Assembly (NCBI RefSeq): GCF_014201095.1
Contig: NZ_JACHDN010000001.1
Coordinates: 3,534,001-3,598,000 of the forward strand
DNA from: Cellulomonas hominis
Lineage (GTDB): Bacteria > Actinomycetota > Actinomycetes > Actinomycetales > Cellulomonadaceae
Length of the DNA: 64,000 nt
Direction: 5' to 3'
The translations under genes were made by a program, and so were the position numbers. The notes under the pieces are model-generated. The model was not told the DNA's origin. It worked only from the letters and a program-made list of their open reading frames with translations, and ran no database searches. Shown here piece after piece: positions 1,881 through 63,823 of this stretch (its first letter is position 1; each line of letters opens with the position of its first letter).

Positions 1881-1889
1881 GCCGCACAT
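1881..1889 (+). promoter_or_regulatory. Motif A (GCCGCACAT) before ligA
   Basis: TGCCGCACAT is followed by exactly 9 nt and then the ATG at 1899. There is no Shine-Dalgarno sequence. It belongs to a series of identical arrangements in the window (see findings). Confidence 0.6.
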
Positions 1890-1898
1890 ATGAACCCC

Positions 1899-3962
1899 AT
1901 GACGACCACCGACGCAGCAGCGATCGCCGCCGACTTCGCCCAGCTCAACCCCCTGGCCGAGCGGGAGGCCTACCTGGCCCTCGGCGAGAGCCTGCGCGCC
2001 GCCGCCAAGTCGTACTACGACGGCACCGAGCAGCTGATGTCCGACGCCGAGTACGACGCCGGGATCGCCGCGATCGAGGCGCGCGTCGCGCTCTCCCCCA
2101 CGGAGATCGACGACTACGAGGACCTGCTCACCTCGATCGCAGCCGGGCAGTCCAAGGGCGGCGACGTCACCCACCCCAGCCGGATGGGGTCGCTGGAGAA
2201 GGCCGACGGCCGCGAGGGTCTTCGTACGTTCGTCACCTCCGTCGCCGGCCCGCTCGCCATCGAACCGAAGCTGGACGGTCTGGCGATCCGCGCGCAGTAC
2301 GACGCCGAGGGTCGCCTGGTCCTGGTCGCCACGCGCGGGAACGGCACCACCGGGGAGGACATCACCCGTTCCGGCCTCAGCCTGCGCATCCAGGGGCTGC
2401 CCCGGCGGATCGACCCCACCTACGGTGTCCGTGAGGTCCGCGGCGAGGTGTACTGCGCCGACACCGACTTCCTGCGCGCCCAGACAGTACGCGCCTCGCT
2501 CGAGGGCGCGCCGTTCGTGAACTCCCGCAACGCTGCCGCCGGCATCCTGCGCAAGGGCGACAAGGCATACGCCGGCATCCTGTCGTTCGCCGCGTACGGC
2601 ACCGGCCTCACCCGGCCGCCGGCCTCGGGTCGCTACACCGACGCCATGCGGGTCGCCGCCGAGGCGGGCGTCGCCACCACCGCCGGCCTGCTCGACTTCC
2701 TGCACCCGGTCGCCTCCGGCACACGCGAGCTCGACGACGTGCTCGCCCAGGTCGACGCCCTCGACGAGCGCCGTGAGACCATCGGCTTCCCCATCGACGG
2801 CATCGTCATCAAGGCCGACGCGGCTGCTGACCGCAAGAGCCTCGGTGAGGGTGACCGCGCCCCGAAGTGGGCGCTGGCCTACAAGTACGCTGCCGAGACC
2901 GCCACCACCAAGGTCGTCGCCATCGAGACCGCGATCGGGCGCACCGGGCGCCTGGCGATCCGAGTCGAGGTCGAGCCAGTGTTCGTCGGCGGCACCACCA
3001 TCACCTTCGCCACCGGGCACAACGTCTCCTGGATGACCGAGCGGGACGTCCGTGTCGGCGACACCGTCACCATCAAGCGGGCCAACGACGTCATCCCGTA
3101 CATCGAGTCCGTCGACCTGGGCGCCCGGCCCACCGACTCGGCCCCGTGGGCGCCGCCGGAGACCGACCCGCTCGGCGAGCCGTGGGACAAGTCCACGCTG
3201 CTGTGGCGGTCGGTCTCGCCGGAGCTGTCCGTGCTCGGCCGCATCACCTACGCCGCCTCCCGGGACTGCCTCGACATCGAGGGGCTGGGCACGGAGATCG
3301 CCACGGCCCTGGTCGAGTCCGGCAAGGTCAACGACGTCGCCGACCTGTTCGCTCTGACCGTGGACGACCTGGCCGCCCTGACGCTGGCCGAGGGCCGCCA
3401 GGTGGGCCAGAAGGTCGCGGCCAAGATCGCCGCCGAGATCGAGACCGCCAAGGCGTCCCCGTGGAACCGGGTCATCACCGCCCTGGGCATCCGGATGACC
3501 GGCCGGACCGCCGGGCGCCGGCTCGCCGCCGCGTTCGCCACCATGGACGCGCTGCGTGGCGCGGGGGTCGCTGACATCGCCGCCGTGGACGGCTTCGGCG
3601 ACGTCAAGGCCGCCACGATCCGCGAGGGTCTGGACGACCTGGCGGCCCGCGGCGTGCTCGACCGGCTCGCTGCCGCCGGGGTCAACATGGGCGCCGAGCG
3701 CGCCCAGGGCGAGGCCGCGGGTCCGCTGGCCGGGATGACCGTGGTGGTCTCCGGGTCGGTGCCCGGGTACTCGCGCACCACCGTCGCAGAGGCGATCGAG
3801 GCCGCCGGGGGCAAGGCGTCCTCGTCGGTGTCGGCGGGCACCAGCATGCTGGTCTCGGACCCCTCCACCTCCTCCAAGTACGTCAAGGCGACCCAGCTCG
3901 GCGTGCGCATCCTCACCCCGGCGCAGTTCCTGGACCTGCTCGGCGGTGGGTCGGGTGCGTGA
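1899..3962 (+). CDS. ligA: NAD-dependent DNA ligase LigA, zinc-finger cysteines lost
   Basis: This 687-aa protein seals nicks using NAD+. Seen in order: a Ia-like N-terminus (SYYDGTEQLMSDAEYD), the adenylation lysine in EPKLDG with the TRGNGTTGED motif, an OB fold (GDTVTIKRANDVIPYI), helix-hairpin-helix repeats ending in VDGFGDVKAATI, and a C-terminal BRCT domain starting near GPLAGMTVVVSGSVPGYS. The four-cysteine zinc finger normally sits between the OB fold and DIEGLG. That stretch is present but its cysteines are replaced; the only Cys there is in RDCLDIEGLG. I chose ATG 1899 because it lies 9 nt after motif A; an in-frame ATG at 1890 touches the motif and would add MNP. The 3' end overlaps the next gene by 8 nt. 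The 278 nt before it show no gene. Confidence 0.92.
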   Translation: MTTTDAAAIAADFAQLNPLAEREAYLALGESLRAAAKSYYDGTEQLMSDAEYDAGIAAIEARVALSPTEIDDYEDLLTSIAAGQSKGGDVTHPSRMGSLEKADGREGLRTFVTSVAGPLAIEPKLDGLAIRAQYDAEGRLVLVATRGNGTTGEDITRSGLSLRIQGLPRRIDPTYGVREVRGEVYCADTDFLRAQTVRASLEGAPFVNSRNAAAGILRKGDKAYAGILSFAAYGTGLTRPPASGRYTDAMRVAAEAGVATTAGLLDFLHPVASGTRELDDVLAQVDALDERRETIGFPIDGIVIKADAAADRKSLGEGDRAPKWALAYKYAAETATTKVVAIETAIGRTGRLAIRVEVEPVFVGGTTITFATGHNVSWMTERDVRVGDTVTIKRANDVIPYIESVDLGARPTDSAPWAPPETDPLGEPWDKSTLLWRSVSPELSVLGRITYAASRDCLDIEGLGTEIATALVESGKVNDVADLFALTVDDLAALTLAEGRQVGQKVAAKIAAEIETAKASPWNRVITALGIRMTGRTAGRRLAAAFATMDALRGAGVADIAAVDGFGDVKAATIREGLDDLAARGVLDRLAAAGVNMGAERAQGEAAGPLAGMTVVVSGSVPGYSRTTVAEAIEAAGGKASSSVSAGTSMLVSDPSTSSKYVKATQLGVRILTPAQFLDLLGGGSGA

Positions 3963-4224
3963 GCTGACCGCGCGCCAGGTCGCCGCGCTGTTCGTGGTGT
4001 CGCAGCGGGCACCGGTCAGCGCCAAGGACGTCGCCGGCAGCCTGCTGGCCACCCAGGCCGCGGCACGGTCCCGGCTCGACGGCCTGTGCGGTCGCGGGCT
4101 GCTGGACCGCCAGTACACCGGGCTGCGCGTCGGGGAGCGCGTCGGGTACGTGCTGACCGCCGAGGGTGCCCGAGTGCTGAACTCTCTGGACCTGTCCGAG
4201 GACTACGAGCCGGGGGAGTCGTGA
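3955..4224 (+). CDS. Small winged-helix protein
   Basis: The 89-aa product (92 if the GTG at 3946 is used) reads like a MarR/PadR-type winged helix: a recognition region SAKDVAGSLLATQAAARSRL, a wing around LLDRQYTGLRVGERVGYVLT, and TAEGARVLNSL. It probably binds DNA or acts as a small dimeric regulator; the target is unknown. It overlaps the end of ligA by 8 nt and its TGA overlaps the next ATG by 1 nt, so ligA and the two small genes are translationally coupled. A role in controlling this operon is inference only. Confidence 0.6.
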   Translation: MRELTARQVAALFVVSQRAPVSAKDVAGSLLATQAAARSRLDGLCGRGLLDRQYTGLRVGERVGYVLTAEGARVLNSLDLSEDYEPGES

Positions 4225-4673
4225 TGGGCACCACCATCGCGACGCTGCCGTCCACCGTCGCTGCCGCGGTCCGGGCGGGCGCGGAGCACCGCCTGCGACC
4301 GGTCCCGCAGGCAGGGAGCAACCTGTCCGACTTCGAGTGCGGGTGCGGCCAGCAGTTCGTCGCCAACGCCCTGGTGCGCACCCCGCGCGGACTGCCGAGC
4401 CTGCCCGCGGTGCACACGGCCGAAGCCCTCGCGCTGGCGGTCGGCGGCGGCCAGCTCGGGACCGAGATGGTCGACCGGCATCAGGTCACCGCTCTGCTGC
4501 CGGACTGGACCGTGGTCCGCGACGCTGCCGGGACGATGGCCCGCCGTGTCCCCGGGTTCAGCAGGGTCCGGTGGCTCACCCAGGCCGGGTCCCTCCTCGA
4601 GACCGGCGACCTCGCCCTGCCGCTGTCGGTGCTGCACCGCCAGGACCCCGCGGTGAGCTACGGACCTGCCTGA
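4224..4673 (+). CDS. Hypothetical protein with CxC motif
   Basis: I do not recognise this 149-aa protein. It contains FECGCGQQF at about residues 37-45, a possible metal or redox pair, followed by a region rich in leucine and valine. Its ATG overlaps the previous stop. High-GC3 coding pattern continues in the same frame beyond the TGA at 4671 (RLTHRYPRRDGGATLVEVSPE, 4698-4760). The stop may therefore be a nonsense change or consensus error in a longer gene that ends near 4840 after a frameshift. Confidence 0.45.
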   Translation: MGTTIATLPSTVAAAVRAGAEHRLRPVPQAGSNLSDFECGCGQQFVANALVRTPRGLPSLPAVHTAEALALAVGGGQLGTEMVDRHQVTALLPDWTVVRDAAGTMARRVPGFSRVRWLTQAGSLLETGDLALPLSVLHRQDPAVSYGPA

Positions 4674-4844: not shown

Positions 4845-4853
4845 GCCGCACAT
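4845..4853 (+). promoter_or_regulatory. Motif A before the 4863 gene
   Basis: TGCCGCACAT plus 9 nt leads exactly to the GTG at 4863. No Shine-Dalgarno is visible. Confidence 0.55.
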
Positions 4854-4862
4854 CTGCCAGGT

Positions 4863-5093
4863 GTGGACGACACCGACGAGAAGCCGCTGAGCCCGGACGA
4901 GCAGCGAGCGATCCGATCCCTGAGAGCCCTCGCCAAGCGGTGGCCTCGGACGCTCACGTTGGCTTCCAAGGGCGGCGAGCTGGTCGTGCTTCGCACCCGC
5001 GACCCCCGGTTCGACTCCGACCGCACCCTCGAGCGGCACCAGGCGATCACCACCGAGGTGCGCGGCATCCCGAACACCGGCGGCGACTGGTGA
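4863..5093 (+). CDS. Small hypothetical protein
   Basis: This 76-aa, charged, soluble protein is not recognised. It begins VDDTDEKPLSPDEQRAIRSL and contains KGGELVVLRTRD. The GTG start is fixed by motif A, 9 nt upstream. Its TGA overlaps the GTG of the next gene at 5090, so the two are coupled. Confidence 0.55.
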   Translation: MDDTDEKPLSPDEQRAIRSLRALAKRWPRTLTLASKGGELVVLRTRDPRFDSDRTLERHQAITTEVRGIPNTGGDW

Positions 5094-6173
5094 GCGCAGC
5101 GTCGACCGAGCGGGCCCTGCTCGCCGACCGGGCCGGCACCTACTGCCTGGACGAGCTCTACCAGGCCGTGCACGCCGCCGGCATCACCGGCCGCGACGGG
5201 CGGCGGCGACGTCATCCACGGCCGCACCGACACCCGCTGGAAGCGGCGCGTCCGCAACGCCCTGCAGGCCCTGAAGCGCGACGGTCGCGCCCACCGCGTC
5301 GGCCCGTCGGTGTGGGTGCTCGACGGCGACCCCGCCGCCCCGGCCGCCGCCGTCCTGGTCAGCCTGGACGGCGCGCACGGGCAGGTTGAGCTGCACCTGT
5401 CCGCCGCTGCCGACCTCCTCGCCCAGCTGGACGAACCGCCCGCCCTGATCTGCGTCGACCCGCCCTACGGCCTGGGCGTGGGCCGCGGCACCCGGCACGA
5501 CGTCGGGGCCCGCACCTACGGCCGCGACAACGGCCAGGTGGTGCCCGGGTACGTCGACGTCGACCCCGGCGCCTACCGGGAGTTCACCAGCCAGTGGGTG
5601 GACGCCGCGGCCCGCGCGCTCACCCCCGGTGGGTACCTGGCCGCCATCACCGGCCCGCAGCAGGCCGCCTGGGTGCAGGTCGCCGCCGAGGACGCCGGCC
5701 TGACCTACGTCAACTCCCTCGCCGTCGGGAGGGTGTTCGCGCTGCGGACCACCCGCCGGTTCGCCCACGCGCACTGGACCGTGACCATCATGTGCTCGGG
5801 GCCGTTGCGCTCCCCGGCACGCATCTTCACGCCGCCGCCGGACCTGCCGCGCGCCCGCTCCGGCGCCCACTACCCGCTGGACCTGTGGCCCATCGGAGAC
5901 GTCGGCCGCGCAGACGCTCGCCCCGGCCAGCCGCGCTACGCGAACAGCCTGCCGGTCCCGCTCGTCGACCGTGTCGTGGGCGCCCTTACCCGCCCCGCCA
6001 CACCTGCCCGCCGCGACTTGGTCTGCGACCCGTTCGTGGGGGGCGGCACCACCGCGCTCGTCGCGCTGCGGCGCGGATTGCGGTTCATCGGCGGCGACCT
6101 CAACCCGCGCGCGCTCGGCTTCACCGCCGCCCGCCTCAGCGCCGACCGCGCCCCCAGCGAGGCCGTCGCATGA
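5090..6173 (+). CDS. DNA methyltransferase with N-terminal winged helix, apparent frameshift
   Basis: The C-terminal part is a beta-class N4/N6 DNA methyltransferase. The catalytic DPPYGLG is at about 5458-5478, and the SAM-binding CDPFVGGGTT comes after it near 6026-6055. The uninterrupted methylase frame has its first start only at 5310. Upstream of that, the same frame reads RTDTRWKRRVRNALQALKRDGRAHRVG, a winged-helix wing. The matching start of that domain (ADRAGTYCLDELYQAVHAAG) lies in the frame opened by the GTG at 5090. One base gained or lost in the G/C run at about 5196-5208 would restore a single protein of about 360 aa. No restriction endonuclease is adjacent, so an orphan or protective methylase is likely. 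The stop overlaps the next gene by 4 nt. Confidence 0.7.
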
Positions 6174-6759: not shown

Positions 6760-6775
6760 GCGCACCGCGCCGGGT

Positions 6776-6784
6776 GCCGCACAT
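6776..6784 (+). promoter_or_regulatory. Motif A before the 6794 gene
   Basis: TGCCGCACAT plus 9 nt leads to ATG 6794. Only 16 nt separate it from the inferred stop of the preceding gene. Confidence 0.55.
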
Positions 6785-6793
6785 CCACTGGGC

Positions 6794-7273
6794 ATGTCCT
6801 CCACGCCCACCCTCAGCCCCGGCGGCCTGGCCCTGGCCGCTGCCGAGCACGTCACCGCCCACCCCGGCACCAGCACCGCCGACCTGATCGGCGCGCTCGC
6901 CCCGTACACCGAGGTGCCCCACGTCCGGGTGCTCGAGGTCGTGCACCGGCACTCTCGCTCGCTCGGGTTCGGCCAGGGCAGCGACCTGCGCTGGTACGCC
7001 GCGCCGGACAGCGCCGAGATCGCCGCGGCGGTCCGCGCCGACGCGCCCGGCCCGATGGTGCAGCCCTACCTGGACGCCTGCCGCGAGTTGGAGGCCGTCG
7101 TGTCTGTCGGCCGCTCGACCCGCGTCCTGAACGCCCTCGGGCAAGCCCTGCTCGCGGACGCCGGCGTCGACCTGGACCGCTGCGGCCTGCAGCACGAACC
7201 GATCCTGGCCGACCAGCGGCAGCGGAACCTGGGGGTGGCCGGGCAGGCCGGCGCCGGTAGCGTGGCCCGGTGA
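6794..7273 (+). CDS. Hypothetical protein (159 aa)
   Basis: This protein is not recognised. The first half resembles a winged-helix fold (LAAAEHVTAHPGTSTADLIG, then VLEVVHRHSRSLGFGQG, then LRWYA). The second half is helical. The start is set by motif A 9 nt upstream rather than by a ribosome site. Its TGA overlaps the GTG of the acetyltransferase gene, so the two are coupled. Confidence 0.5.
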   Translation: MSSTPTLSPGGLALAAAEHVTAHPGTSTADLIGALAPYTEVPHVRVLEVVHRHSRSLGFGQGSDLRWYAAPDSAEIAAAVRADAPGPMVQPYLDACRELEAVVSVGRSTRVLNALGQALLADAGVDLDRCGLQHEPILADQRQRNLGVAGQAGAGSVAR

Positions 7274-7921: not shown

Positions 7922-7930
7922 GCCGCACAT
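7922..7930 (+). promoter_or_regulatory. Motif A before the 7940 gene
   Basis: TGCCGCACAT ACGAACGGC leads to ATG 7940, with no Shine-Dalgarno. The preceding 115 nt are non-coding, so this copy could serve as a stand-alone promoter element. Confidence 0.65.
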
Positions 7931-7939
7931 ACGAACGGC

Positions 7940-10804
7940 ATGACCGACTACCAGGAACAGGTCGCCGACGCGCTGGACGCCGCTCGCGACGCCACCACCA
8001 CCGCACTGGCGACCGCCCATGCCGGCGCAGCCGCCGCCGGCACCGACCTGGTGCCCGCCGGTGCCGACGCCGCCGTGTCGGTCAAGGCTCGGATGGCCGG
8101 AGCCCACGCGCAGGTCGCCAAGGCCCGCACCGCAGCGCTGGAGAAGGTCAACTCGGCCCGCGAGCTGATCGAGGCGCAGAAGGCCGAGCTGGACCGGCAG
8201 GCCCGCGCCCTGGAGCTCGAGCTCGCCCCGCTCAAGGAGACCCTCGCCCTCATGCAGGAGGGCATCTGGACCATGAACCTCTACCTCGGCCGGGACGAGG
8301 AGATCCGCCAGATCGCCGAAGGAGCCCCGGCCCCGGCCGGCACCCCGATCCACGTGCGCCAGATGGTGCTCGCGATGGACGAGGAGTCCGCGGTCAACGC
8401 CGAGGGCAACGGGATCGACTTCCGCTCCGTGGACGCCTTCGACGAGTGGGTCACCTGCGACCCCGCCCACCTGCAGCAGGTGCTTCCGGAGGAGCGCGGC
8501 GTGGTGGCCATCATGGCGCGCCGGTCCGAGATCGACTACAAGGACCCGTGGGCGAACAAGGAGTACAACAAGCGGAACCGGCACACCTACTTCCTGATCC
8601 GCAACGGCGGCGCCCTGTACCGGATGGACACCAACTTCGAGGTCGGCTACCGCCTGGTCCCGGCCCGCAACGAGTTCACCTCCATGTTCCTCGACCGCCA
8701 CACCGGGCAGCCGCTGGTCCCCGGGACCGACAAGTGGCTGGCGGCCGAGAAGCTCGCCGGCGCCCGCGAGCGGCACTACATGCGTGTCGCCCTCATCCTG
8801 CAGGGACTCATCGACCGAACCCACGTGTTCGCACCGCTGCCCAAGCCGGGGGTCAGCCTGCTCACCCCGGCCGACTACGACGAGGGCCACGTGGTCCTGA
8901 TCGCCGACGACGAGTCCGCTCTGACGACCGGTCGGACCCCGTTCTACGACTGGCTGCGGTCCCTGAACAGCCAGCTGCGCCCCGGCATGCGGGTCATGGT
9001 CACCACCCGGCACAAGGACTGGCCCTCCGGCTACCGCGACGGCGGTCACGAGCGCATCTGGCCCAACCGGGCCGAGTACCCGCGGGCCGGGCAGGTGTAC
9101 ACGATCGCGCGCGCCGGGTCCCGGCCCGGGGAGTTCGTCGTCACCTACAAGCGGACCCAGGAGACCTGGGTGAACGACGGCTGGGGCGGCGGGGAGTACC
9201 GCGTGCCCAAGACCGCCGCCTCCTGCTCGATCTTCGTCTCCGACCGGTTCGTGCTCCCGATCGACCTGGTCGACGTCGAGACGATGCGCACCTACCTCGG
9301 CGCCCGGCTGGAGCGGCACGCCTACGCCGACATGTTCCCCACGCTGACCGCCGCGATCGGGTTCCTGGAGGAGGAGAAGGCCGTCGAGGCCCCGTTCCGT
9401 GACCTGCTCGCCGCGCAGGTCGCCCAGGCCGAGGGCGTGGACCTGGACACCGCCGCGGCCCTGGTCGCCCCCGTGATCACCTCCTGGAAGGTCGGGGCCC
9501 GCTGGTTCCGCCCGATGTCCGGCGACCCCGAGGCTGAGGCCCGCGCCGCCACGGCGATCCTGGCCGAGCGGGCCCGCATCGCCCGCGCGGACGCCGGCGC
9601 CGGGGACGACGACGCGTTCCTCCGGCGGGCCCGGCGCGAGCACCGGGACGCCCTCCTGGTCGCCCGGAAGAAGGACGGCACCTACGTGGTCCTCACCCCG
9701 GCCACCCGGGCCTGGGGCCCGGCAGCCGGTACCCCGGAGCACGCCTCGGTCCCGCAGGACGTGTGGGTGCACGTGCACGAGTACACCCGCACCGGCAAGG
9801 CCCGCCCGGTCCGGCAGTGGCAGATCGTCCCGATGGCCTCGCTGTCGCGGTGGATCATCCTGCACGAGGCGCAGGCGTGGTCGACCTGGAAGCGTGCCGC
9901 CCGGCCCGCGGACCACCTGTCCGACCCGGAGATCAACGAGGCCATCAGCCGCATCCGCGACCGCGCCTTCCCGGGGCTGACCCTGATCGCGATCGGCTAC
10001 GACGAGCGCGGCGGCTGGTGGAACAGCAACTCCAAGATGGAGTTCACCGCCTGGTACCACCCGGGCCCGGTGACCATCCCCGAGCGGGTCCTGACCGGCG
10101 AGCTGCCCACCCTGTACGCCAAGACGATCGCGGTGCGCGCGTCCCGCGAGGGGGACGGGTCGATCGGCCTGAGCTGGATCCGGGAGCCGTCGACGAACAA
10201 CACCACCGTCTGGGAGCGGTTCCGCGGGCGGTTCCGTGACGCCGAGGAGAACCGGCCGGCCGGGGTCCCGTGGAACGACAACCGGCGCCACCGGATGGTG
10301 TTCCTGGACCCGGTCAACCTGCCCGCCGCGCACGCCGACGCCGACGCCTGGGTCGAGGCGCACGCCGCCGCCGACCAGCTGGAGTCGCAGGCCGACAAGG
10401 CGCTGCGCGGCGTCCAGGACGGCTGGACCGAGGCCCGGGTCGCCGCGGCCCGGGACCGGTTCATGGAGGACTACGCCGACGAGACGCTGTGGGCTGCCGA
10501 GGAGGCCCGGGTCCGGGGCACCCTGGTGGCGCCATGGAGGACCACGACCGACGACGAGCCCTGGGACGCGCTGCGCTACCTCGCGCTGCGGCTGACCGAG
10601 GAGGGCCGCACCCCGTGGGGGCTGACCGTCGCCGAGGCGATCGAGGCGCTGGACGAGCCCCTGAACCCCAAGCTCGGCTCCCGCCAGAGGCACTGGGCCG
10701 CCAAGGAGACCCTGCGGGAGCCGCTGCCGGAAGGGTTGCTGACCCTGCGGTTCGCGACCGAGCCCACCGGGACCGACGTCGTCGTGGCGGGGGCGGCCTC
10801 GTGA
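7940..10804 (+). CDS. Large hypothetical protein (954 aa)
   Basis: This is an intact 954-aa soluble protein that I cannot assign. Residues ~1-110 are alanine-rich and include a coiled coil (KVNSARELIEAQKAELDRQA). The rest is globular and rich in Trp, Arg and Asp, with no P-loop, transmembrane segment or recognisable catalytic motif. Blocks such as KEYNKRNRHTYFLIRNGGAL and YDERGGWWNSNSKMEF would make good search seeds. It is followed by an overlapping gene (GTGA) and lies between motif A and the PcfJ-like gene. This places it in the mobile-element backbone, perhaps in DNA transfer or defence, but nothing in the sequence proves that. Confidence 0.7.
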   Translation: MTDYQEQVADALDAARDATTTALATAHAGAAAAGTDLVPAGADAAVSVKARMAGAHAQVAKARTAALEKVNSARELIEAQKAELDRQARALELELAPLKETLALMQEGIWTMNLYLGRDEEIRQIAEGAPAPAGTPIHVRQMVLAMDEESAVNAEGNGIDFRSVDAFDEWVTCDPAHLQQVLPEERGVVAIMARRSEIDYKDPWANKEYNKRNRHTYFLIRNGGALYRMDTNFEVGYRLVPARNEFTSMFLDRHTGQPLVPGTDKWLAAEKLAGARERHYMRVALILQGLIDRTHVFAPLPKPGVSLLTPADYDEGHVVLIADDESALTTGRTPFYDWLRSLNSQLRPGMRVMVTTRHKDWPSGYRDGGHERIWPNRAEYPRAGQVYTIARAGSRPGEFVVTYKRTQETWVNDGWGGGEYRVPKTAASCSIFVSDRFVLPIDLVDVETMRTYLGARLERHAYADMFPTLTAAIGFLEEEKAVEAPFRDLLAAQVAQAEGVDLDTAAALVAPVITSWKVGARWFRPMSGDPEAEARAATAILAERARIARADAGAGDDDAFLRRARREHRDALLVARKKDGTYVVLTPATRAWGPAAGTPEHASVPQDVWVHVHEYTRTGKARPVRQWQIVPMASLSRWIILHEAQAWSTWKRAARPADHLSDPEINEAISRIRDRAFPGLTLIAIGYDERGGWWNSNSKMEFTAWYHPGPVTIPERVLTGELPTLYAKTIAVRASREGDGSIGLSWIREPSTNNTTVWERFRGRFRDAEENRPAGVPWNDNRRHRMVFLDPVNLPAAHADADAWVEAHAAADQLESQADKALRGVQDGWTEARVAAARDRFMEDYADETLWAAEEARVRGTLVAPWRTTTDDEPWDALRYLALRLTEEGRTPWGLTVAEAIEALDEPLNPKLGSRQRHWAAKETLREPLPEGLLTLRFATEPTGTDVVVAGAAS

Positions 10805-11283: not shown

Positions 11284-11292
11284 GCCGCACAT
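11284..11292 (+). promoter_or_regulatory. Motif A before the PcfJ-like gene
   Basis: TGCCGCACAT plus 9 nt leads to ATG 11302. The motif starts only 6 nt after the previous stop, so any further promoter element would lie within coding sequence. Confidence 0.6.
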
Positions 11293-11301
11293 CACAGCGG
11301 C

Positions 11302-12747
11302 ATGAGCGACCTCGAGCACCCCGTCCTCGCCGCACTCGCGCGCGCGTCCCTGTACGACGCCGCGGCTACGGTCGAAGTGCACCCGGACGCTCCGGTGCTG
11401 GCCCCCTCCGGCGGGCTGGTGCTCGCCTCGGTGCTCGCCGACACCCGTGGGCTAGCCCGCCGCGGCGGCCGGCTCGAGCGCGGGCACCGGGTCGAGGTCG
11501 TCCGGGAGCGGGTCGAGCTGTTCCAGCCGGACCCGAACGCCGCCATCTACCGGTTCCGGCGCGGGGAGATGCTCGCCGGTACCGCCGCGAGCGGCAAGGG
11601 CTTCTCGCGCTGGGCCACCCGGGAGTGGGTGCGGCTGCGGGTGATGGCCGACGGCCGCTGGCTCACCACCGCCATGGCCTCCAGCGGGGCGAGCGCCTAC
11701 TTCAACCGGTACGTCTACTCGACCGCCCCCGGCGAGACCTCTTTCCCGCAGGCCGTGCGGGCCTTCGCGCACGTCGCGCCGGCGCCGCGCACCTACGAGG
11801 ACTGCTTCCCGCTGCTGGACGCCGGCGGAGCCCGTCAGCTGTGGCAGACCGCGCCGCTGCCGGCGGCGATGATGAACGCGTTCGCGGGCGCCGGACCCGA
11901 GGACACCCCCGCCCTGACCCGGGCCCTGTTCGGCGCCCGGCGCTACCGCAAGGACCTCGCGCGCGCCGTCGCCGGCACGATCCATCCCGGAAGGCTCCCC
12001 GACCCCCGGCTGCTGACCGGGTGCCTGCTGGCCCCGTACGTGCCGACCGACTGGCTCGTGGAGCACCTCGGTGGCCGCGGCCAGAGCCTCGACCGGATCG
12101 GGAACATCAACGTGCGCGGGATGCGCGCGCACCTGCGCCAGCTCGACCAGCGGTCCCTGCGCCGGCTCGCGCTGACCGGGACCGGCACGGTTCACGGGTC
12201 CCTGCTGACCGACCTCAGCGGCTGGGTCCCAGCACCCGGCATGGCCCGGGCGGACTCCTGGGGCGACCTGCACGACAGGGCGATGGCCCGTCGCCGCGCC
12301 CTGGCCGAGCGAGACCGCGCCCGGCGCGACGAGCGTTACCGCAACGCCGCCGACGCCGCGTTCGCCGTCACCGACGACACCCTGCACCGGCAGCTGGAGG
12401 GCGTCACGCCCGGCGGATTCCGCATCGAGCTCGCCCGCGACGGCGCCACCCTGGACGCCTGGGCCGACTCGATGCACCACTGCATCGACTCCTACGCCTA
12501 CCGCAACTGGGCCGGGCAGAGCCTGCTCGGGGCGATCCGGCAGCCCGGGGGCACGATGCTCGGCAACTTCGAGGTCACCGTCGCCAGCCGCTCGAAGGGG
12601 CACCGGCTGGACCTGACCCAGATGCTGGGCCGGTTCAACGCGGTGCTGCCGGCGCAGGTCCGGGCCGAGGTCGAGACCCACCTCACTGGCCGTGGCGTGC
12701 ACGTGGCCCGCTACTTCGGCGACGACGCTCAGGCGCAGGCCGCCTGA
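11302..12747 (+). CDS. PcfJ-like protein
   Basis: The 481-aa protein carries a PcfJ-like domain in its C-terminal third (about residues 360-470): GFRIELARDGATLDAWADSM, then HHCIDSYAYRNWAG, then IRQPGGTMLGNFEVTVA and DLTQMLGRFNAVLPA. PcfJ is named after a gene of the conjugative plasmid pCF10, and such domains are common on plasmids and phages; the biochemical role is unsettled. The N-terminal 350 residues are helical and not assigned. It has its own motif A. It converges on the 339-aa minus-strand gene with only 10 nt between the stops. Confidence 0.65.
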   Translation: MSDLEHPVLAALARASLYDAAATVEVHPDAPVLAPSGGLVLASVLADTRGLARRGGRLERGHRVEVVRERVELFQPDPNAAIYRFRRGEMLAGTAASGKGFSRWATREWVRLRVMADGRWLTTAMASSGASAYFNRYVYSTAPGETSFPQAVRAFAHVAPAPRTYEDCFPLLDAGGARQLWQTAPLPAAMMNAFAGAGPEDTPALTRALFGARRYRKDLARAVAGTIHPGRLPDPRLLTGCLLAPYVPTDWLVEHLGGRGQSLDRIGNINVRGMRAHLRQLDQRSLRRLALTGTGTVHGSLLTDLSGWVPAPGMARADSWGDLHDRAMARRRALAERDRARRDERYRNAADAAFAVTDDTLHRQLEGVTPGGFRIELARDGATLDAWADSMHHCIDSYAYRNWAGQSLLGAIRQPGGTMLGNFEVTVASRSKGHRLDLTQMLGRFNAVLPAQVRAEVETHLTGRGVHVARYFGDDAQAQAA

Positions 12748-12757
12748 GCTCCTCGGT

Positions 12758-13777
12758 TCACAGGCCGCGCAGCAGGCGGGCCTCCAACGCGTCGGCGGCC
12801 GGTCCAATGTGGCGCTCGTACAGGTCCTCCACGTCGGCCTCGCCCATGTGGGACAGCTGTTCCTCGGTGATCCGGCCCTCGGCCAGCGCCAGCGCCAGCG
12901 CATCGCCCGCCGACTCGCACCCGGCCCGGGCGCCCAGGTCGCGGGCGAACTGCGCACCGGTACCTGGCTCGATCGGCTCGGGCTTGCCCCAGCCCGTGGC
13001 GACCAGCGACCGGCCGGCGTCGGCGGCCTCGGCGACGTAGGCCGCGGCGTCGGTGATCGCCGGGGCGAAGTAGTCCTCGTGCAGCGAGACCAGGTCGTCG
13101 GCGGTGAGACCGGCCAGCACGTCGGCCGGGACCTCCTCACGGTTGAGCACGATGCCGACGAAGTCGGCCATGTGCGCCAGGTCCGCCTGGGCGGCGATCT
13201 GCTCCAGGTGCTCGCCCACACCGGGCTGGGCCAGGCCCTGCTCGATGTTCCAGGCCCGCAGCGCCTTGGCGTAGGCGGCGCCGAACAGGCCGGTGTCGCC
13301 CGGGCTCGGGCGGCCGGAGTTCCGGACGGCGTCGCTCGCGACCTGCAGGTCGTCGCTGGACCAGGACTCGGTCGCGGCCAGGTGCCGGCCCAGGAAGTTC
13401 AGCAGGCGCCAGTCCTTGGCGGCGCGGGGGTCGGCCGGCTCGGGGTTGGCGGCCTTCCAGGTCTCCAGGGCGGTGTCGTACTCGGGGTTGGACGCCTCGT
13501 CGTCCTCCTGGATCGCCTCGTAGGCGTCGCCGCCGGGGTGCGGCCGGCCGGTGGAGGCGATCTCCTCAGCGATGGCGTCCAGGTAGTCGGCGGCGCCGTC
13601 CCACTGCTCGTCGAGCCCGAGGATCCGGCCGATCTCGTCCAGGGCGTTCGCGTCACCGTGCACCGGCTGGTCCGGCACCAGCGTGATCGCCGCCTCGTCG
13701 CGTGGGGTGGTGGCGAACTGGCCGCCGATGCTGATGCCGGCGGGCTGACGGTTCTGCGGGGTTCGGGGCGCGTTCAT
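12758..13777 (-). CDS. Acidic protein with N-terminal PAG..GGQFAT tag
   Basis: This 339-aa acidic, helical protein is unknown. Its N-terminus contains PAGISIGGQFATTPRDEAAI. The tag pattern (PxG, three residues, GGxF, then a charged EA) recurs in the proteins starting at 20459 and 61876. The rest has repeated aromatic/Asp-Glu patches and ends EDLYERHIGPAADALEARL. The ATG at 13777 is fixed by motif A on the minus strand. It is divergent from the HerA-like gene. Confidence 0.6.
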   Translation of the reverse strand: MNAPRTPQNRQPAGISIGGQFATTPRDEAAITLVPDQPVHGDANALDEIGRILGLDEQWDGAADYLDAIAEEIASTGRPHPGGDAYEAIQEDDEASNPEYDTALETWKAANPEPADPRAAKDWRLLNFLGRHLAATESWSSDDLQVASDAVRNSGRPSPGDTGLFGAAYAKALRAWNIEQGLAQPGVGEHLEQIAAQADLAHMADFVGIVLNREEVPADVLAGLTADDLVSLHEDYFAPAITDAAAYVAEAADAGRSLVATGWGKPEPIEPGTGAQFARDLGARAGCESAGDALALALAEGRITEEQLSHMGEADVEDLYERHIGPAADALEARLLRGL

Positions 13778-13786
13778 GGCCGGTAG

Positions 13787-13795
13787 ATGTGCGGG
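13787..13795 (-). promoter_or_regulatory. Motif A (CCCGCACAT) before the 13777 start
   Basis: Read on the minus strand, CCCGCACAT plus 9 nt leads to ATG 13777. It lies 7 nt from an oppositely oriented copy (13803-13811), forming a compact divergent control region. Confidence 0.6.
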
Positions 13796-13802: not shown

Positions 13803-13811
13803 GCCGCACAT
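13803..13811 (+). promoter_or_regulatory. Motif A without an immediate start codon
   Basis: TGCCGCACAT ACGAACGCT matches the motif and its usual flank, but the triplet at the expected start is GAG. The HerA-like gene starts 45 nt further on behind a normal GAGGAG ribosome site. This copy therefore argues that the motif sets transcription start rather than translation start. Confidence 0.55.
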
Positions 13812-13865
13812 ACGAACGCTGAGGACCGTGCCGATCCGGCGCAGCCCCCCGCCCGAGGAGGCACC

Positions 13866-15641: not shown

Positions 15642-15650
15642 GCCGCACAT
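15642..15650 (+). promoter_or_regulatory. Motif A before the methylase-helicase gene
   Basis: TGCCGCACAT CTGAACGCC leads to ATG 15660, with no Shine-Dalgarno. Confidence 0.65.
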
Positions 15651-15659
15651 CTGAACGCC

Positions 15660-18600
15660 ATGACCCTGAGCTTGGCCGCCGACGCGCTTCGCGCCCTGCA
15701 CACCCTCACCCGACTCGACGGCCCGGCCCAGAGCTGGGAGCGGGAGATCCTCGCCGCGTGGCCGGGCTGGGGCGCGCTCGCCCCCGCGTTCGCGACCCAG
15801 CCGAAGGGCAAGTGGATCCAGGTCGCCGACGAGCTGGAGAACCTGCTCGGCGACCGGACCGACTGGCTCGCCGCCGGTCTGCAGGCCACCGACACCAGCT
15901 ACTACACCCCCGGCTGGCTCATCGACGGCATGCTGGACGTGCTCACGCGAGTCGGCTTCACGGGCGGCGACATCCTCGAGCCTGGCTGCGGGTCGGGCCG
16001 CTTCATGGGCACCGGCGCCCTGCCCGGCGCCCGCTGGACCGGCATCGAGGCCGACCCCGTCTCCGCCGCGATCGCCACCGCCCTGCACCCCGAAGCGACC
16101 ATCCTGGCCCAGCGTCTGGAGCACACCACCCTGCGGGAGGCGTCCTTCGACGCCGCGATCGGCAACGTTCCCTTCTCCGGGGCCGCCCCGTTCGACCCCG
16201 AGGTCAGCGCGCCGAACCTGCACGCCTACTTCATCCTGCGCGCGCTGCGCGCCGTCCGCCCTGGCGGGTACGTCATCGTCGCCACCTCCCGCTACCTGCT
16301 GGACGACGCCCGTCACACCGACGCGATCACCGAGCTCGGCGAGCTGCGCGGAGCGGTCCGGCTGGCGTCGGGGACCTTCGAGGCCACCGCCGCCGTCGCC
16401 GACGTCCTGGTGCTGCGTCGCCGCGGAGGGCAGCCGGTTGCCGGTGCCTGGGACGACGTCAAGCACCGAACCGGTGGCCCGCTGCGCTCCGGGTACCGGT
16501 TCGGCGACGGCGAGGTCCGCGGGGACAACCGGCTGGTGGTCCGCAACGAGGCCGGCGACCAGGGCTTCAACACCCCCGAGGTGAAGGTCAACCGGTACTG
16601 GGAGCTGCACCCGACCCACGTCGCCGGCCGCATGGTCGCCACCGGGTTCGACCGCGCCCCGCTCAACGTCCTGGCTCAGGACCCCGCCGCCTCAGGCGCC
16701 GCCGCGCTGGCCGCCGCGACGGCTGACCTGCCGTCCCTACCGCCGCGCCCGGAAGCCGTCGACCCGTTCGAGGGCCTGGTGCTCGCTGATGCGCAAGGGC
16801 GGCGGGAGGGCTCGCTGCACCTGATCGACGGTGCCGTGTTCCAGGTCGTCGACGCGACGCTCGTGCCCAAGGACCGGCCCTCCGCCGAGCTGCGCGCCCT
16901 GATCGGCCTGCGGGACGCGATCGTGACGCTGCTGGCCGCCGACGCCGAGCACACCCAGGCCCGCGACAGCGACCCGGTCGCCCACCTGCGCGTTGCTGCG
17001 TTGGACGCCTACACCGCCTACGTGACGAAGTACGGGCCGCTGAACCGCGGCACCCTGCACGAGGGCGCGCTGGACCCCGAGACCGGCGAACCGAAGTTCT
17101 CCTGGCGTCGCCCGCCGATGGGCGGGTTCCGCCGCGACCCCGACTACATGACCGTGATGGCGTGCGAGGTCTACGACCCCGACACCGAGACTGCAGAGGC
17201 CGCCCCGGTGCTGTTGCGACCGGTCAACCGGGCACCCCGTCCGATCGAGCGGGTCGAGAGCCCAGCCGAGGCGATCGCGGTCTGCCTGGGCGAGAGCGGG
17301 CGCATCGACCTGGAGCGCGTCGCCGGGCTGCTCGACCTTCCCGCCGACGCCGACCCGATGGCAGCCCTGGGCGCGCTGGCCTACCTCGACCCCGACACCG
17401 GCCGGGCGGTCCCGGCCCGCGACTACCTCTCGGGCAACGTCCGGCAGAAGCTGGCTCGCGCGCGCACCGCCGCGGCCCGCGAGGCCGTCTACGCGCGCAA
17501 CATCACGGCGCTCGAGCGCGTCGTACCGGAGGACTTCGGCCCCTCCCGCATCCGGGCCACCCTGGGTGCGCCGTGGATCGCGCCCCAGCACGTTGCCACC
17601 TTCACCCAGCAGGTGCTGGGCCAGCGCGCCGACGTCCGGTACTCCGCGGCGCTGGCGCTGTGGGAGATCGAGGGCAAGTGGTGGGGCAAGCCTGAGCAGG
17701 CGCTGGCCTGGGGCACCGGACGCAAGACCCCGTTCCAGATCCTCGAGGCCACGCTGAACGGGCGCCCGCTGACGGTCGTCGACGAGGTCTGGGACGAGCA
17801 CGCCAAGCGGTACCGCTCCGTACGCAACCCGGGGGAGACCCTGGCCGCCGAGGAGAAGGCCACCGCGATGCAGGAGCGGTTCGCCACCTGGATCTGGGAG
17901 GACAAGGCCCGGGCCGAGGCGGTCGCCGCCGAGTTCAACGGCCGCTTCCGCTCCCACGTGGCCCGTGTCGCCGACGGCTCCGCCATGACCTTCCCGGGCC
18001 TGTCGCCCGACATCTCGCTGTGGCCCTGGCAGAGGGACGCCGTCGACCGGATCCTGTCGGCGCCCCGGACCGCGATCGGTCACGCCGTCGGCGCCGGCAA
18101 GACGCTCTCGATGGTGGTCTCGGCGATGCGGCTTCGCCAGCTCGGGCTGGCGACCAAGCCGATGCTCGCCGTGCCCGGGCACCTGCTGGAGCAGATCGCA
18201 CGGGAGGCCATGCAGGCCTACCCCGGCGGGAAGTTCCTGATCGCGTCCAAGGAGGACCTGGCCGGCGACGCCCGCCGGCTGTTCGCTGCCCGCTGCGCCA
18301 CTGGTGACTGGGACCTGGTCATCGTCACCCACGAGACCCTGGTGTCGCTGCCGGTCGACCCGCGCGCCGAGGAGGACTGGGTCACCGAGGAGAAGTACGC
18401 CCTGGCCGATGCGATCCGCTCGGACGAGAACCGCTCCTCCCGCGGCCGTACCGCCAAGGCCATCGCCACCGCCGTCAAGAAGCTCGACGCGCGCCTGGCC
18501 GAGTTGCGCCACCAGGTCGCCGACCCCGCCGCGGTCATGTTCGAGCACCTGGGCGTCGACTGGCTCGGCGTCGACGAGGTCCACATGTTCAAGCGCCTGA

Positions 18601-20440: not shown

Positions 20441-20449
20441 CCCGCACAT
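20441..20449 (+). promoter_or_regulatory. Motif A (CCCGCACAT) before the 20459 gene
   Basis: CCCGCACAT CTACGAGCC leads to ATG 20459; it starts 14 nt after the previous stop. Confidence 0.6.
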
Positions 20450-20458
20450 CTACGAGCC

Positions 20459-21049
20459 ATGAGCCCGAGCCCCGCCACCCGTGCCACTCGCGTGCCCGCC
20501 GGCGTGCGGGCCGGCGGGCAGTTCGCCACCGAAGCTCGCGACGAGGCCCCGATGGGCCTGCTAGCGACACAGCAGGAGATGAGCCCGGACGAGGACGGCT
20601 TCCCGACAGTGCTGTGTGCCCGGTGTCAGGGGTCCGGCAAGTCGCTGTACAACCGGGACGCAGGCCACTCGCGCTGCTTCGCCTGCAACGGGCTCGGCCG
20701 GCGGTACCCGCGCGGCCCGGTCGCCGACGCGATCGCCCAGTTCTCCAAGGCCCGGACCGCGGCGGCGCGCCCGCAGGCGTGGCAGGTCCGCGCCGGGGAC
20801 GTCGTCTCCCCGATCTACGAGGGCTACGGGCAGGCGAAGTGGGGCGTGGTCGAGAAGGTGCTGGTCGCGCGCGGCCGGCCGGTGCGCTTCGAGGGCGAGG
20901 GCGAGAACCGGCGGCCGACAGCCTGGGCTGCACTCCTCGTACTCGACGACGGGCGACGGCTGCAGGTCACCACAGACACGGTGCTCGCACGTCGAGCGAG
21001 CGAGGTTGACCCCGCCCCGTTCGTGGAGATGGCGCTGGCGGGGGAGTAG
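20459..21049 (+). CDS. DnaJ-type zinc-finger protein with GGQFAT tag
   Basis: The 196-aa product starts with the shared tag (RVPAGVRAGGQFATEARDEA, about residues 11-30). It continues with two CxxCxGxG-like knuckles, CARCQGSGKS (about 53) and CFACNGLGRR (about 73), a DnaJ-type zinc-binding pattern. The C-terminal half looks beta-rich (VVSPIYEGYGQAKWGVVEKV), similar to small SH3-like folds. Function is unknown. It converges on the small minus-strand gene just downstream. Confidence 0.65.
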   Translation: MSPSPATRATRVPAGVRAGGQFATEARDEAPMGLLATQQEMSPDEDGFPTVLCARCQGSGKSLYNRDAGHSRCFACNGLGRRYPRGPVADAIAQFSKARTAAARPQAWQVRAGDVVSPIYEGYGQAKWGVVEKVLVARGRPVRFEGEGENRRPTAWAALLVLDDGRRLQVTTDTVLARRASEVDPAPFVEMALAGE

Positions 21050-21052: not shown

Positions 21053-21269
21053 TCAGGCCCTGCGCCGGCGCCGCAGCGCGCGGGTGGTCCACGCGTCGTC
21101 GACGACCTTGGCCACCCAGAGGGCCGCGACAGCGAACGCGAGACCCGGCCAAGTCTGGCCACGACCACGCCCACCAGATCGAGCACCCGAGCAGGGCGGC
21201 CCAGGCCAAGGCGCCCTGGAGGCTGACCTGTGGGGCGACTGAGGCGCCCGTGGAGCGCGAGGTGTCCAT
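21053..21269 (-). CDS. Small two-helix membrane protein, apparent frameshift
   Basis: Motif A fixes an ATG at 21269 on the minus strand. That frame opens with a membrane helix (ALAWAALLGCSIWWAW) and then turns into Arg-rich sequence. The neighbouring frame supplies a second helix and a natural end (GLAFAVAALWVAKVVDDAW, then TTRALRRRRRA and TGA at 21053). A one-base shift at about 21150-21175 would join them into a protein of about 71 aa with two membrane spans and a basic tail. Without a shift the ATG frame runs to 20967 and encodes 100 aa. Confidence 0.45.
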
Positions 21270-21278
21270 GCCCCACAG

Positions 21279-21287
21279 ATGTGCGGC
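21279..21287 (-). promoter_or_regulatory. Motif A before the 21269 start
   Basis: On the minus strand GCCGCACAT CTGTGGGGC leads to ATG 21269. This is the last copy before the accessory island. Confidence 0.55.
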
Positions 21288-23734: not shown

Positions 23735-23745
23735 GGTCGGCCGGC

Positions 23746-34994: not shown

Positions 34995-35591
34995 CTACTC
35001 CGCGGTCGGGCTCACGGGCGCGGAGGGCTCCCGGACCATCCGGATCCCGCGCTTGCGACGCTCCTGGCCCGGTGCGCGGTGCAGCCCGGGCAGGCTGCCG
35101 GCGTAGCGCTCGGAGAGCTTGGCCGTGGCTGCCCGGGTCAGGATCGTCACGCCCTTGGAGTCCGCGTCGGCGGCGAGCGCCGGGCCGAGCAGCGACCGCA
35201 GGGCGGCGCCCTGGTTGCTGCCCGGCCGTGCGGCGGTGTGGTCGTCGATGAGCCAACCGCGCCGGGTACGGAGCAGTCCGATGCTCGCGGCGAACCGCCC
35301 GCCCTGGGAGTGGATCACGAAGACCTTCAGGCCGGTCGCGACCGAAAGGGCGATCCACCCGCCGTAGAGGAAGACCACGCCCACACACGCGGCGAGCAGG
35401 GCGAGGACGACCTTCCCGATGACCGCCAGAACGAGCGCCACACCGACGAACGTGAGCAGCCAGGGGTTGCGCACGACGCTGTACATGACGCCGCGTAGTT
35501 GTCGGAGGCACAGCTGCAGCGTGTCGCGAGGCCGCGCGATCCGGACGTCGTCGACGTTCGGCAGGGTGGGGGTGGGCGACAGGATGCGCAT
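34995..35591 (-). CDS. Membrane protein with C-terminal soluble domain
   Basis: The 198-aa protein has two adjacent membrane helices at about residues 43-85 (WLLTFVGVALVLAVIGKVVL and CVGVVFLYGGWIALSVATGL). A soluble domain of about 110 residues follows (GRFAASIGLLRTRRGWLIDD, and AAALRSLLGPALAADADSKG with one residue uncertain) of no family I recognise; a distant GNAT relationship is conceivable. The start is fixed by motif A on the minus strand, which marks it as a backbone gene between the two islands. Confidence 0.65.
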   Translation of the reverse strand: MRILSPTPTLPNVDDVRIARPRDTLQLCLRQLRGVMYSVVRNPWLLTFVGVALVLAVIGKVVLALLAACVGVVFLYGGWIALSVATGLKVFVIHSQGGRFAASIGLLRTRRGWLIDDHTAARPGSNQGAALRSLLGPALAADADSKGVTILTRAATAKLSERYAGSLPGLHRAPGQERRKRGIRMVREPSAPVSPTAE

Positions 35592-35600
35592 GGAGATCAG

Positions 35601-35609
35601 ATGTGCGGC
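35601..35609 (-). promoter_or_regulatory. Motif A before the 35591 start
   Basis: On the minus strand GCCGCACAT CTGATCTCC leads to ATG 35591. It is isolated between the two accessory islands. Confidence 0.6.
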
Positions 35610-45297: not shown

Positions 45298-45825
45298 GTG
45301 GTCACCCACATCCCTGGCCTCGCCACGGTCGCGACCATCCCCTGGGAGTTCGCCGCCGACGAGGAGACCGGCTTCGTCCAGTACGCGTGGCATGCCGACA
45401 AGCACGGCGACCCCAACGGCTGGTTCGTGGCCACGGTGACGTTCGACGGCACCGGATGGGCGTGGCGCGTGGACTCCCTGGCGCCCGGGCACGGGCAGAT
45501 GCTCGGCGCCGGGGCCGGGCCGGACCGCGGCTACTGCCAGGAGATGGCGGTCGAGTGCGTCGGCAAGGCCTACGACAGCGCTGCACCGCACCGCGGGCTC
45601 GCCACGCCCGCATCGCACCGGTACACGCTCGCCGACGGCTCGCGCGTGGACCTGTCCGCCCTGGCCGGGGACAGCGTCGTCCTGCGGCTGCGAGATGGAG
45701 CCACCCGAGCCGGCGTGCTGCACCTGGGCGGCTTCTACTTGTCGCTCGCCTCGCCCGACCGGACCACGCACGTGCCCCCGTCCGAGGTCGTCGAGATCGT
45801 CCTGGCGACTGCCGCACATTCGTAG
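45298..45825 (+). CDS. Hypothetical protein (175 aa) in the pilus operon
   Basis: The protein is not recognised. It seems soluble and beta-rich, with WHADKHGDPNGWFVATVTFD in the first half and a barrel-like VVLRLRDGATRAGVLHLGGF near the C-terminus. It starts 4 nt after pilC, so it belongs to the pilus operon. Confidence 0.6.
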   Translation: MVTHIPGLATVATIPWEFAADEETGFVQYAWHADKHGDPNGWFVATVTFDGTGWAWRVDSLAPGHGQMLGAGAGPDRGYCQEMAVECVGKAYDSAAPHRGLATPASHRYTLADGSRVDLSALAGDSVVLRLRDGATRAGVLHLGGFYLSLASPDRTTHVPPSEVVEIVLATAAHS

Positions 45826-45851
45826 GGCACAGACCGTCGAAGGAGGAGCCT

Positions 45852-61642: not shown

Positions 61643-61876
61643 CTAGCGGTCGTGCCAGACGATCTCGTCGTCCAGGTCCGGAACGGCAGCGGCCAGATCA
61701 CCCGATGCCGCAAGCTCGGCCGGCCGAGGCAGCCCGGCGTTCAAGGCGGACTCCCCGAGGTTGACGGGCGCCTCCTCGCGCACGGCAGCGCGGAACCGGC
61801 CGCCCTCGCGCACTCCCGAAGGCACACGGGCGGTCGAGACCGGCACCCGGCCCTGGCCCGTCATGATCGTGTCCAC
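61643..61876 (-). CDS. Small tagged protein (77 aa)
   Basis: The N-terminal half carries the recurring tag as RVPSGVREGGRFRAAVREEA (about residues 17-36) and continues PVNLGES. The rest is acidic (PDLDDEIVWHDR). The start GTG 61876 is given by motif A (9-nt spacing), a useful test case since the triplet is not ATG. The function is unknown. Confidence 0.6.
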   Translation of the reverse strand: MDTIMTGQGRVPVSTARVPSGVREGGRFRAAVREEAPVNLGESALNAGLPRPAELAASGDLAAAVPDLDDEIVWHDR

Positions 61877-61885
61877 GCCCGCTAG

Positions 61886-61894
61886 ATGTGCGGG
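61886..61894 (-). promoter_or_regulatory. Motif A (CCCGCACAT) before the 61876 start
   Basis: On the minus strand CCCGCACAT CTAGCGGGC leads to GTG 61876. Confidence 0.6.
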
Positions 61895-63437: not shown

Positions 63438-63463
63438 GGGGCTTCCTTCCGGGGGTAGGTGAG

Positions 63464-63805
63464 TCAGGCGGCGGCGAGGACCGGGGACGGCTGGGGCAGC
63501 GCGGCGAGCATCGCCCGCGCGTCGTCGAGGTGGCGGGTCATGGCCTCGGCGTTCCCGACCGCGAAAGCGATGTCGGACTCGAGCTGGGCCAGGGTGCGGG
63601 CGGCGGCTCCGACCGAGACCGGGTCGCTGGCCAGGTCCGCGTCGGGCAGGCCGCCACCGGCTTCCCGCGCGGCCGCGACCACGAGCGCGGCGACACCGGT
63701 GAGGTCCGCGATGCCGGCGTGGTTCGCACGCTCGAAGTAGTCGAGGTCGTCGCGGAGGGCGAGAGCGCGGGCGGCGCGGTGGATGCCGGTGTCGGTGGTG
63801 GTCAT
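63464..63805 (-). CDS. Hypothetical helical protein (113 aa)
   Basis: It begins MTTTDTGIHRAARALALRDD and is all-helical in pattern. It is not recognised. The start is given by motif A (9-nt spacing). It is probably co-transcribed with the 217-aa gene 26 nt downstream. Confidence 0.55.
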   Translation of the reverse strand: MTTTDTGIHRAARALALRDDLDYFERANHAGIADLTGVAALVVAAAREAGGGLPDADLASDPVSVGAAARTLAQLESDIAFAVGNAEAMTRHLDDARAMLAALPQPSPVLAAA

Positions 63806-63814
63806 GGTCTTGGT

Positions 63815-63823
63815 ATGTGCGGC
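63815..63823 (-). promoter_or_regulatory. Motif A before the 63805 start
   Basis: On the minus strand GCCGCACAT ACCAAGACC leads to ATG 63805. Confidence 0.6.

Follow-up and report, generated by a model that had tools for sequence, protein, structure and literature searches.

A probable promoter signal linked to gene starts on a giant integrative element of Cellulomonas hominis and a candidate element-encoded sigma factor

Background

The late promoters of bacteriophage T4 lack a -35 box, and the gp55 system that serves them includes a clamp-bound coactivator. These promoters carry the word TATAAATA and use the phage sigma factor gp55 (PMC3014915). In Actinobacteria, leaderless genes are common and stand behind the hexamer TANNNT (PMC3160421). 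A further point of comparison is offered by mobile elements with polyvalent proteins (PMC5512222), a source whose examples include the RNA polymerase injected by phage N4 and in whose main text the term sigma factor occurs zero times. Here we describe a stretch of 64,000 nucleotides from Cellulomonas hominis (contig NZ_JACHDN010000001.1, positions 3,534,001 to 3,598,000; hereafter the window), in which an earlier reading of the letters, the original prediction, had noticed one word at an exact distance from twelve start codons. The window is part of a stretch of ~300 kb that, judged from its sequence, is a giant integrative element. The word behaves as a promoter of this element and its relatives, and it is probably read by a divergent sigma factor that the element itself encodes.

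Like the actinobacterial TANNNT genes (PMC3160421), which belong to the same phylum and were also found in our sample of the host chromosome, the motif genes of this element have a promoter some 10-12 bp before the start codon, which would yield a leaderless messenger. They differ in that the word is CCGCACAT, without T at -12 or -7, and in being restricted to a single family of elements, one that encodes a sigma-like protein itself. With the gp55 system the element would share a mobile-element sigma that redirects the host RNA polymerase, and it has only a -10-type element; however, its word is the GC-rich CCGCACAT instead of TATAAATA, starts would be leaderless, and the carriers are large integrative or plasmid elements rather than lytic phage. 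The 607-kb Curtobacterium plasmid D40 (NZ_CP126274) has core genes in common with the element and a homologous sigma-like protein, but it is a free plasmid and uses the words CCGCGCAT and CCGCACACAT. Methylase-helicase proteins are found both on the element and on the polyvalent-protein elements (PMC5512222). Among the literature titles and abstract openings searched, there was no description of plasmids or integrative elements that use one leaderless promoter throughout and bring a sigma for it. We propose a sigma regulon of a mobile element, and its new points would be the unusual form of the promoter, a new family of divergent proteins and recognition words that change.

A start-linked signal confined to one element

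The word SCCGCACAT occurs 15 times in the window against 1.56 expected from shuffled sequences, a count reached by none of 100 shuffles, and CCGCACAT-N9-RTG has 12 matches where 0.01 would be expected by chance. These are exactly the twelve starts of the original prediction, with none besides, and the additional copy that it had placed before a gene with a ribosome site is equally real (Table 1). The whole genome, a single contig of 4,489,147 bp, contains 82 matches compared with 9 for the reversed pattern, and 81 of the 82 fall between 3,519,672 and 3,820,171. Equal abundance throughout the genome, named beforehand as a result that would refute the prediction, was looked for and not found, with a single match outside the island; the host sample contains no CCGCACAT-N9-RTG.

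The island holds 132 copies of CCGCACAT, and in 81 of them ATG or GTG follows at a spacing of 9. Counted over 400 kb (134 copies), every other spacing between 0 and 39 is represented by at most 8. Genes were called by our own codon-usage script, which scores a start higher when the motif or a Shine-Dalgarno word precedes it (in the host sample only the latter); the spacing counts are independent of this bonus. As had been claimed, the motif genes are largely devoid of Shine-Dalgarno-like words, which precede 1 of 66 motif genes and 137 of 239 other island genes, although the two fractions are biased apart because the caller rewarded both kinds of signal. The claim that two parts of the window are free of the motif is roughly right, with one copy in each. 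The copy at 33257, the only one between 22 and 34.9 kb, lies among transposase-like genes without a start codon at N9 and is probably due to chance. The copy at 45811, the only one between 36 and 61 kb, has a GTG 23 nt past its predicted +1, in frame with a gene ending at 46529.

Among 200 genomes of the family, matches number 82 in the genome of the window (G000), 121 in G124, 38 in G015 and 16 in G147 (13 of them in one contig), and each of the remaining 196 has 0-6. Relatives compared were G124, G454, G015, G043, G147 and D40; counts for the first five of these refer to the stretches fetched, which are less than whole genomes. A scan with CCGCACATCTACCGGSCATG over 84,980 species, one genome per species and with our own genome perhaps left out, returned 16 stretches: 15 from G124 and G454, and one from a Cytophagaceae bin that we have taken for a chance match. 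A scan with the relative P0007 gave no matches.

Architecture and conservation of the probable promoter

The consensus over the 81 sites is TG-CCGCACAT-C[T/C][A/G]C-..GGC-[A/G]TG-A. Upstream of it, no position from -87 to -20 exceeds 0.13 bits, and there is no -35 box. Comparison of orthologs delimits the same region. For 51 G000 promoters the gene has a reciprocal best partner in G124, and 45 of these promoters recur there; in the 45 upstream pairs identity is at background level from -70 to -21 (0.16-0.47), reaches 0.76-1.0 between -18 and -6, and is 0.89 at -1, with conservation starting at about -20. In more distant pairs promoters are kept in 18 of 32 cases for G454, 11 of 15 for G015 and none of 13 for D40, when retention is defined as CCGCACAT or CCGCGCAT at N9; a wider test, in which CCGCACACAT and an extra base of spacing are also allowed, recovers the promoter of the sigma-like gene of D40.

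The 51 island copies without RTG at N9 display the same flanking pattern (T-19 in 49%, G-18 in 71%, C-9 in 59% and G-3 in 75%), and +1 is a purine in 41 of them. Most (37 of 51) are followed on their own strand by a gene that starts no more than 150 nt further downstream, compared with 7% for random positions; 23 of these 37 are 26-51 nt from the gene start and 25 have a ribosome-site word. Copies of this kind also precede genes in G124 (45 of 54), G454 (57 of 71, including 15 in which the start codon stands at N10, a base further on, and 3 in which it comes a base sooner) and G015 (13 of 26). Their +1 is a purine in 39 of 54, only 34 of 71, and 23 of 26 cases, respectively. The signal behaves as a promoter. 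The proposal of leaderless transcripts behind an unusual -10 is supported by these data: the motif is extended -10-like, without a -35 box, the +1 is a purine at most G000 copies that lack a start, and such copies lie upstream of genes, many of which have an ordinary ribosome site.

The word itself varies between relatives, where variants were sought by de novo searches as well. CCGCACAT is the fixed-spacing word in G000, G124, G454, G015 and G147. D40 has CCGCGCAT (N9) and CCGCACACAT (N7), with 45 matches to CCGCRCAT-N9-RTG over the whole plasmid against 2 for the reversed pattern, and G043 has CCGTCAA (N9) and GCATAG (N8). Because these altered words stand at the same or nearly the same spacing, the place of the signal is nearly kept while the word changes.

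A candidate sigma factor encoded by the element

In our proposal, the motif forms the core of a promoter peculiar to the element, TG-CCGCACAT-C[T/C][A/G]C-NNGGC-(A/G), with no -35 box, which belongs to the ~300-kb integrative element and its relatives. RNA would start at, or within a base of, the position that follows this pattern. Where that position is the A or G of the ATG or GTG, the messenger would be leaderless; elsewhere it would have a leader, commonly of ~25-50 nt and often with a ribosome site. The reader would most likely be the host core RNA polymerase together with an element-encoded, divergent sigma of 368 aa that resembles sigma regions 2 and 3. We consider this explanation as a whole likely.

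The gene of the 368-aa protein lies outside the window, at genome positions 3,739,535-3,740,641, and its relatives are named 'hypothetical'. The best structural match of its AlphaFold model, within the 'pdb_via' set, is sigma region 2, whose fold the model shares; for the C-terminal part, no sigma chain is among the structural matches listed in that set. In hhalign comparisons against the SigA-type group, the family ranked first of 59. Region 4 was not recognised in the protein, and this would account for a conserved promoter that consists of an extended -10 alone. A sequence search of solved structures found no sigma. PF00940, the profile of T7-type RNA polymerases, had no match on the element and no control match either, so that absence of such an enzyme is not indicated.

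An alignment of 13 members matched 8 of the 200 family genomes, and the matches were full-length in G000, G124, G015 and G043 only. The others comprised the N-terminal tag described below (G109, G028 and G049) and a partial match in G078 that was lost with a larger alignment. G454 and D40 also carry a member of the family. Among 20 core families, the sigma-like gene is the sole one that stands behind the motif of its respective element in five of five elements, in which motif-preceded genes make up 69 of 305, 111 of 390, 83 of 285, 28 of 147 and 54 of 590. In G043 the gene starts at CCGTCAA-N9-ATG. Taken with the modelled fold, this makes the 368-aa protein the probable reader of the motif. 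Since its gene bears the promoter itself, we infer positive autoregulation, the sigma factor activating its own synthesis. G124 contains this gene a second time (C9:30083-31015), in a form with a single in-frame TGA.

Several points weigh against this explanation. The gene starts derive from our own caller with its motif bonus. A scan of 16 family members gave Sigma70_r2 or Sigma70_r3 matches for 7, none of which reached the gathering score. The relic in G147 keeps 13 of 15 copies in register, and neither sigma-like protein of the element was found in its 630-contig assembly; it may be a recent relic, be served by another factor, or have had its gene missed. Finally, the element encodes a second sigma-like protein, of 289 aa, with a region-4-like end.

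Alternative explanations

This second protein (genome 3,706,413-3,707,282, minus strand; L013:6413-7282) could be the reader, either by itself or as one half of a split sigma whose other half is the 368-aa protein. It has a region 3 besides its region-4-like part, aligns by hhalign over 207 columns to SigA regions 2-4 (E 3.7e-4, second of 59), and takes first place when compared with the 19 host sigmas together (E 2.6e-4). Its D40 ortholog matches Sigma70_r3 at E 0.0038, under the cut-off, and relatives are present in G124, G454, G043 and D40. However, G015 has no relative at E 0.1 despite its 35 in-register motifs, and the G000 gene is not directly behind a motif, and we regard this protein as an unlikely reader.

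Reading of the leaderless promoter by one of the host's sigma factors, perhaps with a DNA-binding activator encoded by the element, would account for the promoters of the G147 relic, in whose assembly no element sigma was found. The Sigma70_r2 profile has 19 matches in the genome, all outside the element. Yet no host regulon visibly uses the motif, as a single match of the 82 is found elsewhere than on the element, and only 0-6 matches occur in each of 196 of the 200 family genomes. The motif also does not fit the host leaderless promoters. In the host sample, the same script found TANNNT (positions tested, -22 to -6) beginning at -14 to -12 in 48 of 326 genes and at -11 in one, while T at -12 or -7 is present in 0 of 63 motif genes. 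A host sigma as the reader therefore seems improbable.

The original prediction had also considered a new translation signal. An initiation signal in the messenger would suit the fixed distance to ATG or GTG in 81 of 132 copies, but the leadered copies keep the motif with its flanking pattern, many of them ahead of a ribosome site, so that this reading is not supported and can be given hardly any weight. A repeated site bound by a protein of segregation, methylation or packaging, and placed at gene starts by coincidence, would fit the many copies spread over much of the element, but is highly improbable given their exact register to starts, their strand specificity and their retention gene by gene between orthologs.

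The original prediction is borne out in part. Beyond what it could see, the signal belongs to a ~300-kb mobile element, recurs on its relatives, differs between some of them, and is accompanied by an element-encoded sigma-like protein. These findings suggest that such elements run their own gene-expression channel in the host. Giant mobile elements of actinobacteria would have a transcription channel to themselves, built on a compact promoter without a -35 box and fused to the start codon, and on an unannotated sigma-like family whose probable recognition word is not the same in all relatives. The way in which a newly arrived 300-kb element shields its genes from regulation by the host becomes directly testable. 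Coevolution of sigma factor and promoter also becomes testable, by pairing the D40 and G043 proteins with CCGCACAT, CCGCGCAT, CCGCACACAT and CCCGTCAA promoters. In addition, annotation gains a way to locate true starts on such elements, and the promoter might serve as an orthogonal expression tool for GC-rich hosts.

An N-terminal tag shared by element proteins

Dozens of otherwise different element proteins begin with a tag of ~35 residues, R-x-P-A-G-x-x-x-G-G-Q-F-A...R-x-E, which was counted with a regular expression (noted form R.PAG[VI]..GGQFA...R.E). Tagged genes number 28 of 305 in G000 (24 behind the motif), 50 of 413 in G124 (39) and 29 of 285 in G454 (19), and are rare in G015 (5 of 179), D40 (4 of 590) and G147 (0 of 50). 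Two of those in the window are marked in Table 1. The sigma-like protein bears the same tag, which is possibly a sorting or transfer signal. If it is a transfer signal, the element might send its sigma factor along with its DNA, so that this factor and the other tagged proteins reach the recipient at the same time and switch on the leaderless set, which the recipient's own sigmas could not read. The model for such co-delivery is the virion RNA polymerase of phage N4 (PMC5512222). We offer this scenario as a speculation with little likelihood attached.

Composition of the element and features of the window

The GC content of 75.2% in the 400-kb host sample falls to 70-74% per 10 kb across the element. 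Gene content includes a DNA polymerase III alpha subunit with an intein, a NAD ligase, an anaerobic ribonucleotide reductase and a methyltransferase-helicase, as well as several ATPases: an AAA_10 protein (read as VirB4-like), a HerA/coupling-protein-like protein and two T2SSE proteins. At the right end lies a serine recombinase (3,820,370-3,821,755), and the left-end gene (3,518,728-3,519,642) was read as SpoU/TrmH-like. Because the stretch beyond the recombinase, ~3,821,845-3,822,211, is 74% identical to the 3' part of this gene, the element seems to have supplied a replacement for the target gene's own 3' end. A site-specific recombinase and insertion in a target gene are features expected of an integrative conjugative element; as possible conjugation machinery, the ATPases named above were found. 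Related elements are those of G124, G454 and G015 (55% GC) and plasmid D40; that of G043 is more distant, and the relic of G147 (~27 kb) ends in a gene read as a tyrosine integrase.

Table 1. Predicted promoters carrying the motif in the window (window positions)
Position	Strand	Predicted feature	Gene	Basis or remark
1881..1901	+	Leaderless promoter, GCCGCACAT-N9-ATG	NAD-dependent DNA ligase, 1899-3962	Motif match, Pfam
4845..4865	+	Leaderless promoter, GTG start	76 aa, 4863-5093	Gene has G124 relative
6776..6796	+	Leaderless promoter, ATG 6794	ORF 6170-7273	In-frame internal/alternative start (159 codons)
7922..7942	+	Leaderless promoter	954 aa, 7940-10804	Motif match
11284..11304	+	Leaderless promoter	PcfJ-like, 481 aa, 11302-12747	Motif match
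13775..13795	-	Leaderless promoter (CCCGCACAT)	339 aa, 12758-13777	N-terminal PAG..GGQFA tag
13803..13821	+	Leadered promoter copy, predicted +1 13821	HerA/coupling-protein-like, 13866-15611	45 nt before ATG; ribosome site
15642..15662	+	Leaderless promoter	Methyltransferase-helicase-like, 1588 aa, 15660-20426	Motif match
20441..20461	+	Leaderless promoter (CCCGCACAT)	196 aa, 20459-21049	N-terminal tag
21267..21287	-	Leaderless promoter, ATG 21269	100-aa ORF	Weakest gene, not picked by gene caller
35589..35609	-	Leaderless promoter	198 aa, 34995-35591	Motif match
45811..45829	+	Probable leadered promoter, predicted +1 45829		Then GGAGGAG, GTG 45852; read from sequence
61874..61894	-	Leaderless promoter (CCCGCACAT), GTG start	77 aa, 61643-61876
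63803..63823	-	Leaderless promoter	113 aa, 63464-63805	Motif match

The motif upstream of the DNA ligase gene is present at its orthologs in G124 and G454 and was not found at those in G015 and D40. Most genes called between 22.7 and 34.8 kb are without a relative in the five elements compared, and positions 22700-34800 are probably an insert; its genes encode a P-type cation ATPase, a heliorhodopsin, an archaeo-eukaryotic release-factor-like protein, two integrase-core transposases and an AAA partner. The part from 36 to 60 kb, a pilus/secretion module, is largely common to the relatives, and most of its genes have Shine-Dalgarno-like words.

The gene of the 954-aa protein is one of three that have a match in all five relatives compared, the 27-kb relic among them, and the protein has no Pfam or PHROGs match. 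More distant relatives are found on 3 phage records and on 1235 plasmid records, many of the latter from large plasmids of enterobacteria (27% identity among the rows listed); this breadth on plasmid records indicates a general large-plasmid protein. We rejected the idea that it is a new RNA polymerase, as no polymerase motifs were seen in the alignment and neither database gave a match.

Other candidate signals were discarded. The listed copies of a second motif class, TGCTCATG, are the reverse complement of the motif beside the start codon. Viral contigs gave 2 strict matches, of which that in L051 appears to be a chance match within a coding region. A 17-mer that occurs 55 times in the host sample was read as a CRISPR-like array; the repeats lie near L028:16640 (a place computed from the concatenated sample), with a period of 61. 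Plasmid stretches of ~42 kb from Streptomyces, Euzebya, Rhodococcus and Frondihabitans each hold one CCGCACAT, none in register.

The polymerase III alpha gene with its intein lies at L018:11089-15882, and a helicase with a LAGLIDADG endonuclease-like insert was observed at L014:13404-16958. On the Frondihabitans plasmid (L090), 16 places with GAGGGACGG were listed, and most of them display a different leader repeat, in which TGTACTGTA is followed after ~20 nt by GAGGGACGG, a ribosome site and ATG.

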